Source of the DNA: Rhizobium sp. Q54 | Lineage (GTDB): Bacteria > Bacteroidota > Bacteroidia > Flavobacteriales > Flavobacteriaceae | Direction: 5' to 3' | Length of the DNA stretch: 64,000 nt | Assembly: GCA_943328505.2 (NCBI GenBank) | Contig: CALQAH020000001.1 | Span: forward strand, 62,001-126,000 | Part shown: piece after piece, positions 3,635 to 56,847 of the stretch | Position numbering within the stretch: the stretch's first letter is position 1 | Layout of the letters: the number at the start of each line of letters is the position of its first letter | Translations under genes and position numbers: made by a program | Notes under the pieces: model-generated | Seen by the model: the letters and a program-made list of their open reading frames with translations, nothing else | Database searches by the model: none | What the model was told of the DNA's origin: nothing

Positions 3635-4566
3635 TGAACGATAATTCCAATCAAAAAACAATTTTAAATGCTTTAGACCAAAAATTCGAAGCAATCAATC
3701 AAAAAACCGCAACACATCTTGAAGGCCTGCTTTGGTCGAAACCCATTACTTATTGGGATTACATTCAAACAGATGTATTATTAAATCTTCAAACTCAAAG
3801 AACCACTTTGCCCGACGAAATGGTTTTTATTATGTACCATCAAGTCAATGAATTACTGTTCAAAATGATATTGTGGGAAATCAATCAATTGTGCGATATT
3901 GACCATCCTTCAACAGATTTTTTTACAGAAAGATTAGGAAGAATTAGTAGGTATTTTGATATGTTGACTACTTCATTCGATATTATGGGTGACGGAATGG
4001 AAGTAGAACAATATATGAAATTTAGAAATACACTAACACCAGCAAGTGGATTTCAAAGCGAACAATACCGTTTAATAGAGTTTGCTTCAACGGATTTGAT
4101 CAATTTAATTGATTATCGTTTTAGAGCAACAATTGATAGAAATACACCCTACGAACATGCCTTTGAACATTTGTATTGGCAAGCAGCAGGTAAAAATTAT
4201 GAAACAGGAGAAAAATCGTACTTACTATCGGCATTTGAAAATAAATACAAAGCTCATTTTTTGAGAGAAATGGAAAGATACAATACCATTAATCTATGGC
4301 AAAAATTCAAGCAATTACCCGAATCAGATCAAAAAAATCCAGCATTAATTAATGCAATGAGGCATTATGACCATACGGTAAATATTATATGGGTATTAGG
4401 TCATTTAAATGCAGCGCGAAAGTATATAGATAGCGGACAAGGTATTGCCGAAGCAACTGGGGGAAGCGATTGGAAAAAATACATGCATCCAAAATACCAA
4501 AGAAGAATATTTTTCCCCGAATTATGGAGCGAAGAAGAATTAAAAAATTGGGGTAGCGAAAATTAA
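3634..4566 (+). CDS. kynA: Tryptophan 2,3-dioxygenase
   Basis: Haem enzyme opening the tryptophan indole ring to N-formylkynurenine, first step of the kynurenine pathway. The 310-residue all-helical protein has the family active-site histidine at His69 (IMYHQVNELLFK), the haem-binding region HTVNIIWVLGH (residues 247-257) and the substrate-loop motif EATGGSDWKKYM. Length fits bacterial TDO. It starts in a TAATG overlap with the DUF3108 gene. A second kynurenine-pathway enzyme, 3-hydroxyanthranilate dioxygenase, is encoded 12 kb downstream; the middle enzymes are not in the window. Confidence 0.95.
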   Translation: MNDNSNQKTILNALDQKFEAINQKTATHLEGLLWSKPITYWDYIQTDVLLNLQTQRTTLPDEMVFIMYHQVNELLFKMILWEINQLCDIDHPSTDFFTERLGRISRYFDMLTTSFDIMGDGMEVEQYMKFRNTLTPASGFQSEQYRLIEFASTDLINLIDYRFRATIDRNTPYEHAFEHLYWQAAGKNYETGEKSYLLSAFENKYKAHFLREMERYNTINLWQKFKQLPESDQKNPALINAMRHYDHTVNIIWVLGHLNAARKYIDSGQGIAEATGGSDWKKYMHPKYQRRIFFPELWSEEELKNWGSEN

Positions 4567-4588
4567 TTTTACCCAAAAAAACACCACC

Positions 4589-5815
4589 TTGAAAAGAGTA
4601 TCTCTATTACTAATTGTATTGGTTTTTATTTTGTCTTGTAAAAAAGAAGAAGTAGAAACGGTGCAAACAATAAATCCTGTAACACCAGTGATTGAGTTTG
4701 GCTTCAAATTCAATGATTTTAATGTGCAACAAGATACTATTGAGAGTGGAGATACATTTGGAAGTATTATTGACGCACAAAATCTAGGTAAAAAGGAAGT
4801 TTTTGATATTGTTGAAAAAGTTAAAGATACTTTTGACGTTAGGATTATTAGGGAAGGAAAACCTTTTACAATACTAAGAACAAAAGATAAAACTAAAAAA
4901 TTGCAAGCCTTCATATATCAACCGGATAGATTAAATTATTACATAATTGATTTTAGAGATTCAATAGTAGTTCATAAAAAAACAAAACCTCTAACCTTCA
5001 AAACTAGAACCATTGCTGGCGCATTAAATGGTTCGCTTTCGGAAACATTAGCCAATGAAAAAGTGGACGCTTCTTTAGCCACTCGAATCGCTAAAGTTTA
5101 TGCTTGGTCAATCGACTTTTTCAAACTCCAAAAAGGAGATAAGTTTGCCATTACATTTACAGAAAGATACATTAGCGATTCTATTTATGATGGAGTTGAC
5201 AGCTTAAAAGCTTCCTATTTTGAATACAAAGGAAAAAATATTTATGCCTTTCCTTTTGAACATGATCTAAATTCAGGCAAATTAGAATACTATGATGAAG
5301 AAGGGAAAGCCTTAAAAAACTTCTTCTTAAAGGCACCTTTAAAATTTATAAACATTACTTCTCGATATACAAAAAGTAGATTTCACCCAGTGCAGCATCG
5401 ATGGAAGGCGCATAATGGAACTGATTATGCCGCATCAACAGGGACACCAATCATGACAACCGCTTCAGGAATTGTTGAACAAGCAGGTTTTACAACTGGG
5501 AATGGTAACTTTGTTAAAGTAAAACATGATAAAACCTATTCTACCCAATATTTACATATGTCTAAAATAGTAGTAAAAAGAGGGCAACGGGTAACACAAG
5601 GGCAAGTTATAGGGAAAGTTGGAAGTACAGGTTTAGCCACAGGTCCACATGTTTGCTATCGTTTTTGGAAAAATGGCGTGCAGGTTGATGCTTTGAAATT
5701 AAAATTACCAAACTCCACACCTATGGATTCAAAAAACAAACCTAGATTTATAGCACAAATGACTCCTCTCAAACGTGAATTGGATAGTGTATCCGCGTTA
5801 AAATTTAAAAAATAA
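4589..5815 (+). CDS. M23-family peptidoglycan metallopeptidase, lipoprotein
   Basis: Predicted zinc endopeptidase acting on peptidoglycan cross-links. The start is TTG: the preceding stretch has no in-frame ATG and this start gives a good lipoprotein signal (VFILSC, lipid Cys17). The N-terminal part is a non-catalytic domain and residues about 265-360 are the LytM/M23 fold. Zinc and catalytic residues visible are His275 and Asp279 (HNGTD), His323 (YLHMS) and His354. The usual HxH motif reads HVC, with Cys356 where the last zinc histidine is expected. It lies 22 nt after kynA in the same orientation, possibly in the same transcript. Confidence 0.85.
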   Translation: MKRVSLLLIVLVFILSCKKEEVETVQTINPVTPVIEFGFKFNDFNVQQDTIESGDTFGSIIDAQNLGKKEVFDIVEKVKDTFDVRIIREGKPFTILRTKDKTKKLQAFIYQPDRLNYYIIDFRDSIVVHKKTKPLTFKTRTIAGALNGSLSETLANEKVDASLATRIAKVYAWSIDFFKLQKGDKFAITFTERYISDSIYDGVDSLKASYFEYKGKNIYAFPFEHDLNSGKLEYYDEEGKALKNFFLKAPLKFINITSRYTKSRFHPVQHRWKAHNGTDYAASTGTPIMTTASGIVEQAGFTTGNGNFVKVKHDKTYSTQYLHMSKIVVKRGQRVTQGQVIGKVGSTGLATGPHVCYRFWKNGVQVDALKLKLPNSTPMDSKNKPRFIAQMTPLKRELDSVSALKFKK

Positions 5816-5878
5816 TTTTTTTTCATTACTACAACGTTACCTTAAAAATCAGATAGTATAGTTTACAAACTATTCTAT

Positions 5879-5886
5879 TAAATTTG
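5879..5886 (+). promoter_or_regulatory. -7 box of pgi
   Basis: TAAATTTG is an exact match to TAnnTTTG. It overlaps the TTG that the ORF track uses as start, so that TTG is not translated; the ATG at 5905 is the likely start. Confidence 0.6.
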
Positions 5887-5904
5887 CAAAAGAAAATCAA
5901 AATA

Positions 5905-7548
5905 ATGGCCTTAGACAAAATTAATCCGTCAACTACAACTGCTTGGCATCAATTACAAAATCATTATACAGAAATGCAAACGGCTTCTATGTCAGAAATG
6001 TTTGCCAATGATAGTAGTAGAACTGAAAAATTTCATATACAATGGAAAGATTTCTTAGTTGATTATTCCAAAAACATCATCAATCAAAAGACTATAGATT
6101 TACTTTTAAATTTAGCTAACGAAGTACATTTAAAAACAGCAATTGCAAGTTATTTCAATGGCGAAATCATCAATCAAACCGAAAACAGAGCAGTGCTACA
6201 TACCGCTTTACGAACTCCAGAAACAGCAACTGTTTTAGTTGATGGAAGTAATGTTATCCCTGAGATTTTTGAGGTTAAAAAAGCCGTTCAAAAATTTTCG
6301 AATGAAGTGATTTTAGGTGAAAGAAAAGGCTATACAGGAAAACCATTTACCGATATTGTCAATATAGGAATTGGAGGTTCCGATTTAGGACCAGCAATGG
6401 TTGTTGAAGCATTACAATTTTATAAAAATCACTTGAATGTTCATTTTGTCTCCAATGTTGATGGCGATCATGTAAATGAAATAATTAAAAAAATAAATCC
6501 TGAAACAACACTTTTTGTAATCGTTTCAAAAACATTCACAACCCAAGAAACACTTACAAATTCGGAAACCATTAGAGCTTGGTTTCTGAAAAACGCTTTG
6601 CAAGAAGATGTCGCCAAGCACTTTGTAGCAGTATCTACCAATATTCAAAGAGTTACGGAATTTGGAATTAATCCAGCCAATGTTTTTCCCATGTGGGATT
6701 GGGTTGGTGGACGATTTTCGCTTTGGAGTGCCGTTGGATTATCCGTTAGTTTAGCAGTAGGTTATGATAACTTTAACAAGTTATTAAAAGGGGCAAACGA
6801 AATGGATGAACATTTCAAAACTACTGATTTTGACAAAAATATTCCTGTAGTTTTGGCTTTATTAAGTATTTGGTACAACAACTTTTTTGGAGCCGAAAGC
6901 GAAGCCTTGATTCCATACACACAATATTTGCAAAAATTGGCGCCTTATTTACAACAAGGAATTATGGAAAGCAATGGGAAAAGCGTTGGGCGCGATGGGA
7001 AACCTGTAAATTATCAAACAGGATCTATTATTTGGGGTGAACCTGGCACCAATTCGCAACATGCCTTTTTTCAATTGATTCATCAAGGAACAAAATTAAT
7101 TCCAACCGATTTTATCGGATTTGTTAAGCCTTTATTCGGGAATCAAGACCATCACGAGAAGTTGATGTCCAACTTTTTTGCGCAAACAGAAGCTTTGTTA
7201 AACGGAAAAACTGCCTTTCAAGTTCAATCCGAATTTGATAAAAACAAGGTTCCTAAAGACAAAGCAGCCTATTTATTACCTTTTAAAGTTTTTGCAGGTA
7301 ACAAACCAACTACTACTTTATTGATTCAAAAATTAACTCCAGAAGCTTTAGGTTCTTTAATCGCCATGTATGAACATAAAATTTTCGTTCAAGGTATTAT
7401 TTGGAATATTTTCAGCTACGACCAATGGGGAGTTGAATTGGGAAAACAATTAGCCAATTCCATTTTAGATGAAATACACTCAAAATCTGTTAGTAGTCAC
7501 GATAGTTCAACGTCATTTTTACTAAACTATTATTTGGAAAATAAATAA
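5905..7548 (+). CDS. pgi: Glucose-6-phosphate isomerase
   Basis: Interconverts glucose-6-phosphate and fructose-6-phosphate in glycolysis and gluconeogenesis; cytosolic. The 547-residue product has the sugar-phosphate-binding motifs [16 protein letters not shown] and the signature [18 protein letters not shown], plus the C-terminal catalytic-lysine region around [15 protein letters not shown] moved the start from the track's TTG at 5884 to ATG 5905 because the TTG lies within the -7 promoter box. Own promoter and a strong terminator make it a single-gene unit. Confidence 0.96.
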
Positions 7549-54123: not shown

Positions 54124-54477
54124 ATGAATTTCCCAATTCCTTTTTCGATAGATGAACTTTTGGCAACCGCTGAAAGTGAATTTTTGTATTCAAAATTGAT
54201 TGACCAAATCAACAAGGATTTCAATTTGGCCAATGAAGCGGTGGATTTTCCACAAAGTACTTCACCCAACGAATTAAAAATTCAATTACACGAAAAAGTA
54301 TACCGTTTAATTCAATATAAATTTGCCGAATATTTGAACCTACTTTACATTATTGACGTGCCCGAAGACCAAGTCAAAAAACTGGATGGCTCCGATTTGG
54401 CGGAACTTTCCCAACAAGTGGCGTTTCTAATTTTAAAAAGAGAATGGATGAAAGTGTGGTTTAGAAATCGCTTTTAA
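54124..54477 (+). CDS. Uncharacterised small protein whose 3' end is duplicated downstream
   Basis: A 117-residue soluble, acidic, mostly helical protein starting NFPIPFSIDELLATAESEF and ending LKREWMKVWFRNRF. No family recognised. It is 9 nt after the membrane protein gene, same operon. Its last 25 codons or so (54395-54468) recur at 56236-56309 with 66 of 74 identical bases and no gaps, where they overlap the end of the convergent outer-membrane gene. The downstream copy looks like the original end of this gene. Confidence 0.7.
   Translation: MNFPIPFSIDELLATAESEFLYSKLIDQINKDFNLANEAVDFPQSTSPNELKIQLHEKVYRLIQYKFAEYLNLLYIIDVPEDQVKKLDGSDLAELSQQVAFLILKREWMKVWFRNRF
54395..54468 (+). repeat. 74-nt direct repeat, copy 1 (functional gene end)
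   Basis: Begins ATTTGGCGGAACTTTCCCA and ends TTTAGAAAT. It aligns without gaps to 56236-56309 with 8 substitutions by my count. Confidence 0.85.
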
Positions 54478-54534
54478 TTTTTGAGTATTGTAAATCAAAA
54501 TAGTTAAAAGTAATTTTCACATTGTGTATAATAC

Positions 54535-54717
54535 TTATTCATCAACAGAAAATGTAACATTAGAATTAGTAGTAAAATAATAAACAACCTCCCAACTATT
54601 TAATAAATCATTTTGAATGTTATTATTCTCAAAGTCCATAATTAGATTATCAATATCACAATCACTAAAGATTTTATTTAGATGTTGAGGTTTGATAGTA
54701 TACCTTTTCCTATTGTT
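54535..54717 (-). pseudogene. Remnant of a coding sequence without a start
   Basis: A 60-codon open stretch on the minus strand reads NNRKRYTIKPQHLNKIF ... NSWEVVYYFTTNSNVTFSVDE and stop. It is preceded by an in-frame TGA and has no start codon near its 5' end; the only internal ATG is at about codon 27. Composition looks protein-like (aromatic and acidic residues, amphipathic strands). It is likely the tail of a broken gene. Family not recognised. Confidence 0.4.
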
Positions 54718-54750
54718 TCATTTCTTAATTTCATTTAGTATGTATAAAAG

Positions 54751-54784
54751 AAAAGAGGATTGATTTATATACCAATCCTCTTTT
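54751..54784 (-). terminator. Terminator of the island lipoprotein gene
   Basis: AAAAGAGGATTG / CAATCCTCTTTT, a 12-bp perfect stem with a 10-nt loop just downstream of the minus-strand lipoprotein stop. Confidence 0.85.
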
Positions 54785-54802
54785 AGAAAGAACTTATTGA
54801 GA

Positions 54803-55462
54803 TTATTCTTTATCGATAAATTTCGGCATTTCTTTTTTAAGTTCAGCAATTATTTTGTCAAAAACGTCTTTGTCTTCCCCATTTAAAGTCCACCCCTCAG
54901 TATAGCCATTGTTCATATAGTGAGCATCTGGCATACATTTTGGTCTAGATTCTTCAGGATTATCTTCAGGGTCCAATCTAATCCCATTTTTATTATCCCA
55001 TTTAACAGTTATATCCCATCCGCTACTATATGGATGGTTTATCTGAGCTGTGTAATAATTAAAAAATTTTCCGTCTTTCATTTCCAAATAGGATTCTATA
55101 GTGTTCTCTTCCAAATCAATACTAATTTCATATCCATTAAAATTTTCGTCGTTTACATAATTCATATCACGTTGAACAATGTATTTACCATTTAATTTCA
55201 CTTTCGCTTTCTCGTAAATTTTATAACCATTTTTATATTTCTGTGATAGAATGATAGTGTCATTTTGATCTTTATCGGCACAAGTTCCCGTATAGGGTTT
55301 TCCATGTAATTTACCTCCTTGTAATTCGCCACACCCGCAATCCGCAACTTCAACAGATTCTGTCTTAGAATCTGTTTTAGATTCTTCTTCTTTCTCGTTT
55401 TTACCACCACAAGAAATAGTTAAAATACCTAATATCACTAATAATCCAAATTGTTTTTTCAT
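54803..55462 (-). CDS. Uncharacterised lipoprotein in the accessory island
   Basis: A 219-residue lipoprotein (ILTISCGGK) with an acidic linker rich in Glu/Lys/Ser, then a Cys-containing motif CGCGELQGGKLHGKPYTGTC. That region (KLHGKPYTGTCADK) is reminiscent of MORN-like antitoxin/phosphoinositide-kinase repeats (G-x-x-Y-x-G), and a C-terminal domain follows that I cannot assign. It ends the two-gene set with the DUF1566-like gene, 11 nt downstream of it. Confidence 0.65.
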   Translation of the reverse strand: MKKQFGLLVILGILTISCGGKNEKEEESKTDSKTESVEVADCGCGELQGGKLHGKPYTGTCADKDQNDTIILSQKYKNGYKIYEKAKVKLNGKYIVQRDMNYVNDENFNGYEISIDLEENTIESYLEMKDGKFFNYYTAQINHPYSSGWDITVKWDNKNGIRLDPEDNPEESRPKCMPDAHYMNNGYTEGWTLNGEDKDVFDKIIAELKKEMPKFIDKE

Positions 55463-55473
55463 AATTTTCTAAT

Positions 55474-55998
55474 TTATTTATAATTTTTGTTTTTTTTTAA
55501 ATTTTGATTTGGAGCAATGCTCCTCACAGCTCTAACGTTATTATGATCTGTTACCTGACTCGGAGATTCATTAGCGGCGTATCTATCATTTGACAATTCA
55601 GCACTCAAATATGTGTCACAAGAGCAATTGGCATCTTTACGGAGTGTTGAACTCCAATAATAGAATTCAGCATCAAAACCGCCAATTATCTTTTTGTTGA
55701 CCTTGAGAATAAGTAATTCTTTTATCGTTGGTAAACGCCATCCACCGCCTAATTTCGAAATACCCGCGTTAGCATCGTCCCAATTAAAAAGACCAAGGTC
55801 TTTCTTCATAATCTCCAAATTTCCGATTTTAATAGTTTGACCAACACTATTAGAATTTATTAAATCAACCTTGGGATTACGCTGTGAAACCTCTTCCTGT
55901 CCTTGAAAAGTGCTCTCTTCATATTCATTTTGACCTTGACCATTCATTGTAAGGGTCATAAACCCTATTAAAAGGAAAAGTTTTTTCATTTTTTTCAT
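55474..55998 (-). CDS. Exported DUF1566/Lcl-C-like protein
   Basis: A 174-residue secreted protein. The signal peptide (KKLFLLIGFMTLTMNGQGQ) is followed by a domain with the family hallmarks FNWDDANAGISKLGGGWRLP, TIKELLIL, YYWSST and the terminal NNVRAVRSI. This is a C-type-lectin-like fold found in many Bacteroidetes surface proteins; ligand unknown. It has its own promoter and a leader of about 60 nt containing a CGCAA/TTGCG hairpin, and is first of two genes. Confidence 0.72.
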   Translation of the reverse strand: MKKMKKLFLLIGFMTLTMNGQGQNEYEESTFQGQEEVSQRNPKVDLINSNSVGQTIKIGNLEIMKKDLGLFNWDDANAGISKLGGGWRLPTIKELLILKVNKKIIGGFDAEFYYWSSTLRKDANCSCDTYLSAELSNDRYAANESPSQVTDHNNVRAVRSIAPNQNLKKNKNYK

Positions 55999-56301
55999 TT
56001 ATTTAATTATTTTACATTCATAAAACAAAACACCGCAATCACCTTGCGATACAAAAATTTATGTTCCAAATATAAAAAAATATTTAATACTATTCATACA
56101 TGATTAGATAAATTTTACAATCTTAAAGGTTGTAAGAATTGATATACACAAAGGATAAGGCGTATTTAGTATCGTTTGGGAAACATTTAAAAAAGATGTG
56201 AGAGGGAAAAGCTTTGTGCCAAGAAGCACTTGCCAATTTGGCGGAACTTTCCCAGCAAGTAGTATTCTTGATTTTAAAAAGAGAATGGATGAAAGTTTGG
56301 T
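55999..56301. other. Intergenic region containing a promoter and the duplicated gene end
   Basis: 303 nt without an intact gene. From left: leader of the DUF1566-like gene with a CGCAA-TCACC-TTGCG hairpin (about 56036-56050), its promoter at 56067-56074, a stretch with no recognisable feature (56075-56200), then the pseudogene fragment from 56202. Confidence 0.6.
56067..56074 (-). promoter_or_regulatory. -7 box of the DUF1566-like gene
   Basis: TATATTTG on the minus strand. Confidence 0.5.
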
Positions 56302-56318
56302 TTAGAAATAAGCTCTAA
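56202..56318 (+). pseudogene. C-terminal fragment duplicating the 117-residue protein gene
   Basis: Open from just after an in-frame TGA, without a start codon. From 56235 it reads NLAELSQQVVFLILKREWMK then VWFRNKL and stop, against DLAELSQQVAFLILKREWMK and VWFRNRF in the intact gene at 54124-54477. The 74-nt core 56236-56309 is the second direct-repeat copy. Its last 17 nt overlap the 3' end of the minus-strand outer-membrane gene, so this copy is embedded in the native junction. Confidence 0.8.
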
Positions 56319-56847
56319 TAAATGGCATAAATCCTTCGGCATAAACCGTTTTGTCTTTGTCAAAAAGTAAATTATACCTGGCGCCAACGGTAATATTATC
56401 TACCCGATAACCTCCGCCAACAAAAACCGCAGTATTCCAAAAATTATCTTTGTATTCGGATCCAATATAATCAACAACCGAATTTACCCTAAGCTGTTCC
56501 ACTTCCAAAGAAACCTGAACTTCCTCAACAGGATTAATCAACACCACTGCGTTGGCACCATAAATCCATGAACTGTATTCATTTTTTATGGCCACTCGAC
56601 TTCCTTGAAGCCCAAATCCAAGCCCAATATAATTGTTAACATTATAAATAGCGCTTGGCGCCAAAGTAATATCAGTAAAGCCAGAGCCAACATTAATTCC
56701 AAATCCTCCACCAAATTGTACTTTCTCCCAAAAAACACTTTTAGATTTTGGAAGTGGCGTTTGTTGCGCACTTCCAATAATTGAAAAACTAACAAATAAA
56801 AAGGCAAGTTTCAATCTTAAAGAAGTAGAATAAATGTGTTTTTTCAT
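56302..56847 (-). CDS. Outer-membrane beta-barrel-like protein
   Basis: A 181-residue exported protein. The signal region ends SFSIIGSAQQ. The mature part alternates hydrophobic strands with Gly turns (FGGGFGINVGSGFTDITLAP, IGLGFGLQGS, FVGGGYRVDNITVGARYNLL) and ends in Phe (FIRAYF), typical for an eight-strand barrel. Function unknown. Its 3' end overlaps the duplicated fragment of the 117-residue protein gene, which suggests that the two genes were once direct convergent neighbours. Confidence 0.72.
   Translation of the reverse strand: MKKHIYSTSLRLKLAFLFVSFSIIGSAQQTPLPKSKSVFWEKVQFGGGFGINVGSGFTDITLAPSAIYNVNNYIGLGFGLQGSRVAIKNEYSSWIYGANAVVLINPVEEVQVSLEVEQLRVNSVVDYIGSEYKDNFWNTAVFVGGGYRVDNITVGARYNLLFDKDKTVYAEGFMPFIRAYF

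Follow-up and report, generated by a model that had tools for sequence, protein, structure and literature searches.

A probable integrase-less descendant of Flavobacterium elements that replace the last codons of a conserved 117-residue gene

Why does the 3' end of a complete gene recur a short distance downstream, beyond two genes for secreted proteins, at a locus that carries no integrase? The question is raised by a stretch of 64,000 nt (here called the window), which is part of the metagenome-derived Flavobacterium draft genome G000, an assembly of 87 contigs. The gene is an intact ORF of 117 amino acids (54124-54477, plus strand) that is conserved in Flavobacterium and that takes its last codons (RF-stop) from the island. 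In a preliminary description, a gap-free repeat of 74 nt with 8 substitutions was reported; a repeat search recovers it and extends it to 77 nt, with the upstream copy forming the 3' part of the intact gene (54392-54468) and the downstream copy lying at 56233-56309 (both on the plus strand; spacing 1841; 88% identity). The copies differ at 9 of 77 nt, 8 of which fall within the 74 nt described earlier. The downstream copy is the sole other match to the gene within its own genome, and its E value of 1e-21 is far beyond chance. It overlaps the tail of an outer-membrane protein gene, as had been noted, and the overlap is now attributed to a convergent ORF (56302-56847, minus strand) that also overlaps the end of the target gene at empty sites. 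Between the copies, all the parts previously listed are found, namely two secreted-protein genes, a terminator, and a coding remnant, the last of which proves to come from the 5' end of a regulator gene of the XRE type. The hairpin terminator (54751-54784; a 34-nt self-complementary match, 88%) is located 3' of the cargo, which consists of gene A for a 219-aa lipoprotein (54803-55462, minus strand) and gene B for a 174-aa signal-peptide protein in which a profile match indicates an Lcl_C-like domain (55474-55998, minus strand). The reported absence of an integrase holds for the ORFs of the island, and the integrase matches in its own genome are 26-29% identical and located elsewhere.

The 117-aa gene was matched in 141 of 148 genus genomes and shows no Pfam or NCBIfam family above cut-off. 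In a comparison set of 80 Flavobacterium-type loci fetched from public genomes, the site is empty in 31: the gene and the convergent outer-membrane gene overlap by 4 or 17 nt, which leaves no space for an insert. In 23 of the 80 loci, more than 500 nt separate the two genes. An empty site, whose existence in related strains had been proposed as a check, is also found in the closest relative, L075/L004 (gene 91% identical), where the gene end resembles the downstream copy. In particular, 95 nt that comprise the downstream copy and the adjoining outer-membrane tail are 93.7% identical to L075, so that this copy is the original end of the gene, still in its native surroundings, in agreement with the earlier proposal that the ancestral gene ended beside the outer-membrane gene. 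Over the 58 nt of this copy that precede the core, L075 clearly matches best (54 of 58; next 49). The ancestral ending is RNKL-stop (56302-56318; also in L075), whereas the window gene, a complete 117-aa ORF with an element-supplied 3' end, terminates in RNRF-stop. All surviving insertions leave a complete 117-aa gene, which suggests that the gene may be needed. The outer-membrane protein is 55% identical to that of L075, whereas both flanks are approx. 86% identical at the DNA level and the nearby isp and sucA exceed 90%; thus, the outer-membrane gene is either fast-evolving or separately exchanged. No tRNA was found near the site, and a tRNA as the target was rejected.

On the left side of the island, the repeat is followed by an element-derived left end (54469-54509, plus strand), which comprises the replacement codons, a stop, and then ...GTATTGTAAATCA, a motif also present in L132. 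Alignment of window positions 54328-54509 with the gene end and left end of L048 gives an 80% match that reaches 32 nt past the stop; together with RNRF-stop in place of the ancestral ending, this accords with the previous view that the arriving segment brought a replacement 3' end. The terminator and the left region can also be aligned with L042, where another species carries an island of 1.7 kb that lacks an integrase; the counterpart of the terminator lies there at 4536-4586. On the right side, tblastn and DNA alignment with L042 and L048 assign the coding remnant (approx. 56139-56236, plus strand) to the first ~33 codons of an XRE gene that is intact in both. The tblastn match is 74% over residues 1-38 of the L042 XRE protein, the last few residues being inside a microhomology. 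This microhomology, ATTTGGCnGAAnTTTC, is common to xre and the target gene and marks the fusion joint (56236-56251, plus strand); xre of L048 and the gene match at 14 of 16 positions, and among random joints the fraction that attains 13 of 16 is 7.5e-5. Since the left end matches and the start of XRE is fused to the 3' end of the gene, the island very probably derives from an element of the type present in L048, G112, and G144. As the window contains neither an integrase nor terminal repeats, its descent is traced through the left end and the XRE fragment.

Elements of this type encode related tyrosine integrases that share 71-85% identity. The L048 insert (4.9 kb) encodes a tyrosine recombinase with Phage_integrase and SAM-like domains, a serine recombinase, and a secreted Kelch protein; its empty counterpart, L057/L011, matches its right junction at 87% over 85 nt. 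The element of G112 (L130; 12-14 kb) has an integrase of 71% and a resolvase of 90% identity. It also encodes a homolog of cargo A, a secreted protein of the Fib_succ_major type, a nuclease of the Mrr type, and a protein with a RES domain. The region L130 4296-14565, with the Mrr-type nuclease, the RES-domain protein, GIY-YIG, and possible replication proteins (a single weak match, E 0.005, below cut-off), resembles defence or toxin cargo; PADLOC gave no match for the three proteins of this element that were tested. In G144 (L131/L132), the two element ends lie on two contig ends: one contig ends 104 nt past the gene, inside the left end, and the other carries an integrase (85% identical) together with a right junction that includes the gene's last codons. 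Synteny differs in G144, as the gene after the right junction is not the outer-membrane gene. The close integrase family was found in 2 of 397 genus genomes and in L048, in all three cases at this gene end; the other integrases found are at most 33% identical. A family-wide sample of 300 genomes yielded nothing at E <= 1e-40, and the viral contigs, phages, and plasmids searched yielded no useful relative. Conjugation or mobilization genes were not found among the ORFs (at least 80 aa) of the window island or L048. The preliminary description had asked whether other strains carry different cargo; unrelated inserts do occur at the same point in other species, and the integrase elements of L048, G112, and G144 are there.

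Several elements share a serine recombinase at 87-95% identity, although most of their tyrosine integrases are only 27-34% identical (L048 7881-8501; L130 15538-16158; L136 843-1460; L167 4456-5073; L174 3001-3612; L175 10132-10749). Most elements sharing it have no 117-aa target in the stretch read. It appears that integrase and target have been swapped while the resolvase module was retained.

Both junctions of L048, G112, and G144 share, within approx. 11-22 nt of the last codons of the gene, the core GTTTGGTTT[AC]G. The attL/attR stretch common to these elements, GTnTGGTTTAG, encodes V-W-F-R and lies in the window at 54454-54464 (plus strand). After integration, the host codons are replaced by element-supplied endings (RNRF-stop, RNKYSS-stop, or RNRFLS-stop). 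Moreover, L048, L130, and L131/L132 carry two GTGTCGTTT repeats near each end, paired as expected for the arm sites of an integrase; none of these terminal repeats is present in the window or in L042. The commonest core in the genus is GTTTGGTTTAG (32 loci), GTTTGG being the commonest form. In the window, the repeat spans 77 nt and the fusion is located at the left edge of the downstream copy, whereas the core shared by the relatives spans approx. 11-22 nt. Because the integrase-bearing elements have just this much in common at the right junction, a plain attR is an unlikely description of the 77-nt copy; a repeat longer than the core, together with a microhomology fusion, implies that the copies are not a simple attL/attR pair and that a recombination or deletion step was required. 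Thus, the earlier concept of a target-restoring insertion is supported, but the repeat can hardly be read as a simple pair of att sites; decay of the element or homologous exchange had already been allowed for.

Further independent integrase-less islands occupy the site in L042/L169, L085, L117, and L166. The island of L042 and L169 has the same right junction in two species, and in L085/L017 and L117 the gene-end remnants exceed the core and differ in length and start. Such varied joints inside the gene end fit repeated homology-anchored capture with an illegitimate join on the other side. In L085 (5340-6215), a gene for a 164-aa cysteine-rich lipoprotein is flanked on both sides by copies of the gene end and of approx. 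70 nt from the tail of the outer-membrane gene, and the second gene-end copy contains a stop and an indel. A 147-aa secreted gene is common to L166 (G106; 4400-6117) and L117 (G026; 4588-5031), at the same site in both species; in L166, a small secreted gene and a counterpart of gene B of the window are present in addition, which makes three genes. One and the same two-gene cargo is found at this site in two species, in L043 (5359-6031) and L079 (1381-2041).

The cargo proteins of the window point to the cell surface or to export. The AlphaFold2 model of lipoprotein A is a predicted beta-meander (pLDDT 78.8, confident); no PDB structure matched it below E 0.001 in a fold search. Besides G000, 6 of 357 genus genomes contain homologs of A, and in 4 of these an XRE gene belonging to the same family lies no more than approx. 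1.4 kb away; identity is 50% in G611 and 34-36% in G004, G560, G604, G477, and G115. The homolog in the G112 element is 31% identical. Protein B matches PF07603 (Lcl_C-like) at E 1e-5, below the curated cut-off, and its structure model is poor (pLDDT 55); homologs of B are found in G106 at the same site and in G611 beside A. PADLOC returned nothing for either A or B, nor for the further cargo submitted to it. B and the cargo of L042 and L048 begin alike, with a common start and signal peptide (MKK.LLLIGF.SLTMN.Q), but differ in the mature protein; alignment of the N-termini with those of L042, L048, and L169 places this conserved segment at 55932-55998 (minus strand). Its counterparts (L042 5573-5627; L048 7391-7448; and L169) are conserved at the DNA level and are followed by unrelated mature proteins. 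At 11 XRE loci the 5' flank could be read, and in all of these but L136 (10 of 11) the first divergent ORF carries, by eye, a signal peptide or lipobox. Judged from their sequences, A and B may form, at most, a regulated surface or exported module. A more tentative idea, with somewhat less than an even chance of being correct, is that of an exchangeable export cassette in which XRE, the divergent promoter region, and the signal peptide are kept while mature proteins (Lcl_C-like, LamG with a T9SS tail, Kelch) are swapped, the module moving between elements with different integrases and targets alongside a near-constant serine resolvase.

The island is very probably an integrase-less descendant of Flavobacterium elements that replace the last codons of the 117-aa gene, its right edge being a microhomology fusion of XRE and the gene end, most likely acquired via homology-anchored capture. 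This reading draws on the repeat, the empty sites, the integrase-bearing relatives at the site, the common left end, and the XRE fusion; from these, we infer the order of events and the recombination route. An element of the ancestral type would insert in the last codons of the gene and supply codons of its own, so that the gene stays intact, while the original 3' end would be pushed downstream, still abutting the outer-membrane gene. A piece of donor DNA, composed of a donor gene end and the left part of an element, would have been anchored on its left side by homology in the target gene and joined on its right side by microhomology inside the gene end of the recipient. In the window lineage, the integrase and resolvase are missing, as are the terminal repeats and the greater part of the XRE gene; the left end, the terminator, the two exported-protein genes, and the start of XRE are all that is left. 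The illegitimate joint at the right edge suggests homology-anchored capture rather than integrase action. Homology-facilitated illegitimate recombination, in which one end is anchored by homology and the other is joined illegitimately, has been described (PMC3240628).

Alternatively, an integrase may have inserted an element whose attP homology was exceptionally long (77 nt or more), and the resolvase and integrase may then have been removed by an internal deletion that began in the XRE gene and reached into the right end. Related elements integrate exactly at this gene end, microhomology deletions are common, and at one site the upstream copy reads GTGTGG, like L075, and the downstream copy GTTTGG, like the elements, in keeping with attL/attR logic; however, this site is weak because of the frequency of GTTTGG in the genus, and the three integrase-bearing elements share only approx. 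11-22 nt at the right junction, as opposed to 77 nt, L075-like, here. The upstream copy is no more distant from L075 than the rest of the gene, and the few informative gene-end sites in the 77 nt do not separate capture from insertion followed by deletion; overall, the latter is considered unlikely, albeit with appreciable weight. It is less probable still that ordinary homologous exchange across the flanking core genes introduced a pre-existing island with no mobile element involved at the locus. Integrase-free hotspots that turn over via flanking core genes are known (PMC5635113), an integrase-less island with one right junction is present in two species (L042/L169), and cargo recurs between species (L043/L079; L117/L166). 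Nevertheless, exchange leaves unexplained the element-derived left end, the XRE remnant, and a left boundary in the same last codons used by integrases; moreover, the upstream flank is uniformly approx. 86% identical to L075, with no donor or exchange tract visible.

The copies in L085, which hold the gene end and the outer-membrane tail at high identity, look like a short duplication, and a tandem duplication of the gene end with cargo inserted later between the copies might be envisaged for the window as well. There, however, XRE rather than gene sequence lies to the left of the downstream copy, and element sequence rather than the outer-membrane tail follows the upstream copy, which makes this origin highly improbable. 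A tandem duplication spanning the cargo, which the preliminary description had named as the event that would speak against it, is not needed; it is rejected for the window, where the second copy has the start of XRE on its left. An assembly or binning artefact might be suspected in a metagenome-derived draft of many contigs, but the same architecture, with the XRE and left-end sequences at the same site, recurs in the independent assemblies L042, L048, and L169, and an artefact is thus the least credible explanation of all. Homology-anchored capture of part of an integrase-bearing element remains the likeliest route.

Gene-end targeting with restoration of the target is a known kind of integration. 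In Streptococcus, tyrosine-integrase ICEs and IMEs reside in the 3' end of protein genes (rplL, guaA, and others) and are flanked by direct repeats of 12-54 bp (PMC4701971). As in Flavobacterium, the 3' end of a conserved gene is targeted, the product stays intact or little changed, and the direct repeats are short and derived from the gene end; in contrast, the target here is a 117-aa Flavobacterium gene, the integrase family is different, no conjugation genes are seen in L048, and the window has no integrase and a repeat longer than the core. The 10K genomic island of Riemerella anatipestifer (PMC6764341) is likewise a tyrosine-integrase island of the Bacteroidota with direct-repeat flanks, but it targets an Arg-tRNA (53-bp att) instead of a gene for a protein. 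Integration hotspots without mobile elements, which are often integrase-free (Oliveira et al. 2017; PMC5635113), similarly consist of the same core-gene pair around different cargo in different genomes; unlike them, the site described here provides direct evidence of the route of cargo arrival, namely an integrase-bearing family at the same point and gene-end remnants. Displaced gene remnants are also known from the immunity arrays of Vibrio cholerae (PMC5361080), which share with the window one homologous anchor, an illegitimate joint, and an old gene part displaced downstream of the newcomer; the effector/immunity role belongs to the Vibrio case. Nothing specific was found in the literature on this element family in Flavobacterium, and both the family and its 117-aa target appear to be undescribed.

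A single locus thus provides a stepwise series, from the empty site through the integrase-bearing element and the integrase-less island to gene-end remnants, which shows cargo persisting after the mobility genes have been lost. In such a series, a gene-end remnant can flag the event when no integrase is left. The findings also point to a family of Flavobacterium integrases that appears to be undescribed and whose target is defined, as well as to exported proteins that move as a set and have a regulator and signal peptide in common.
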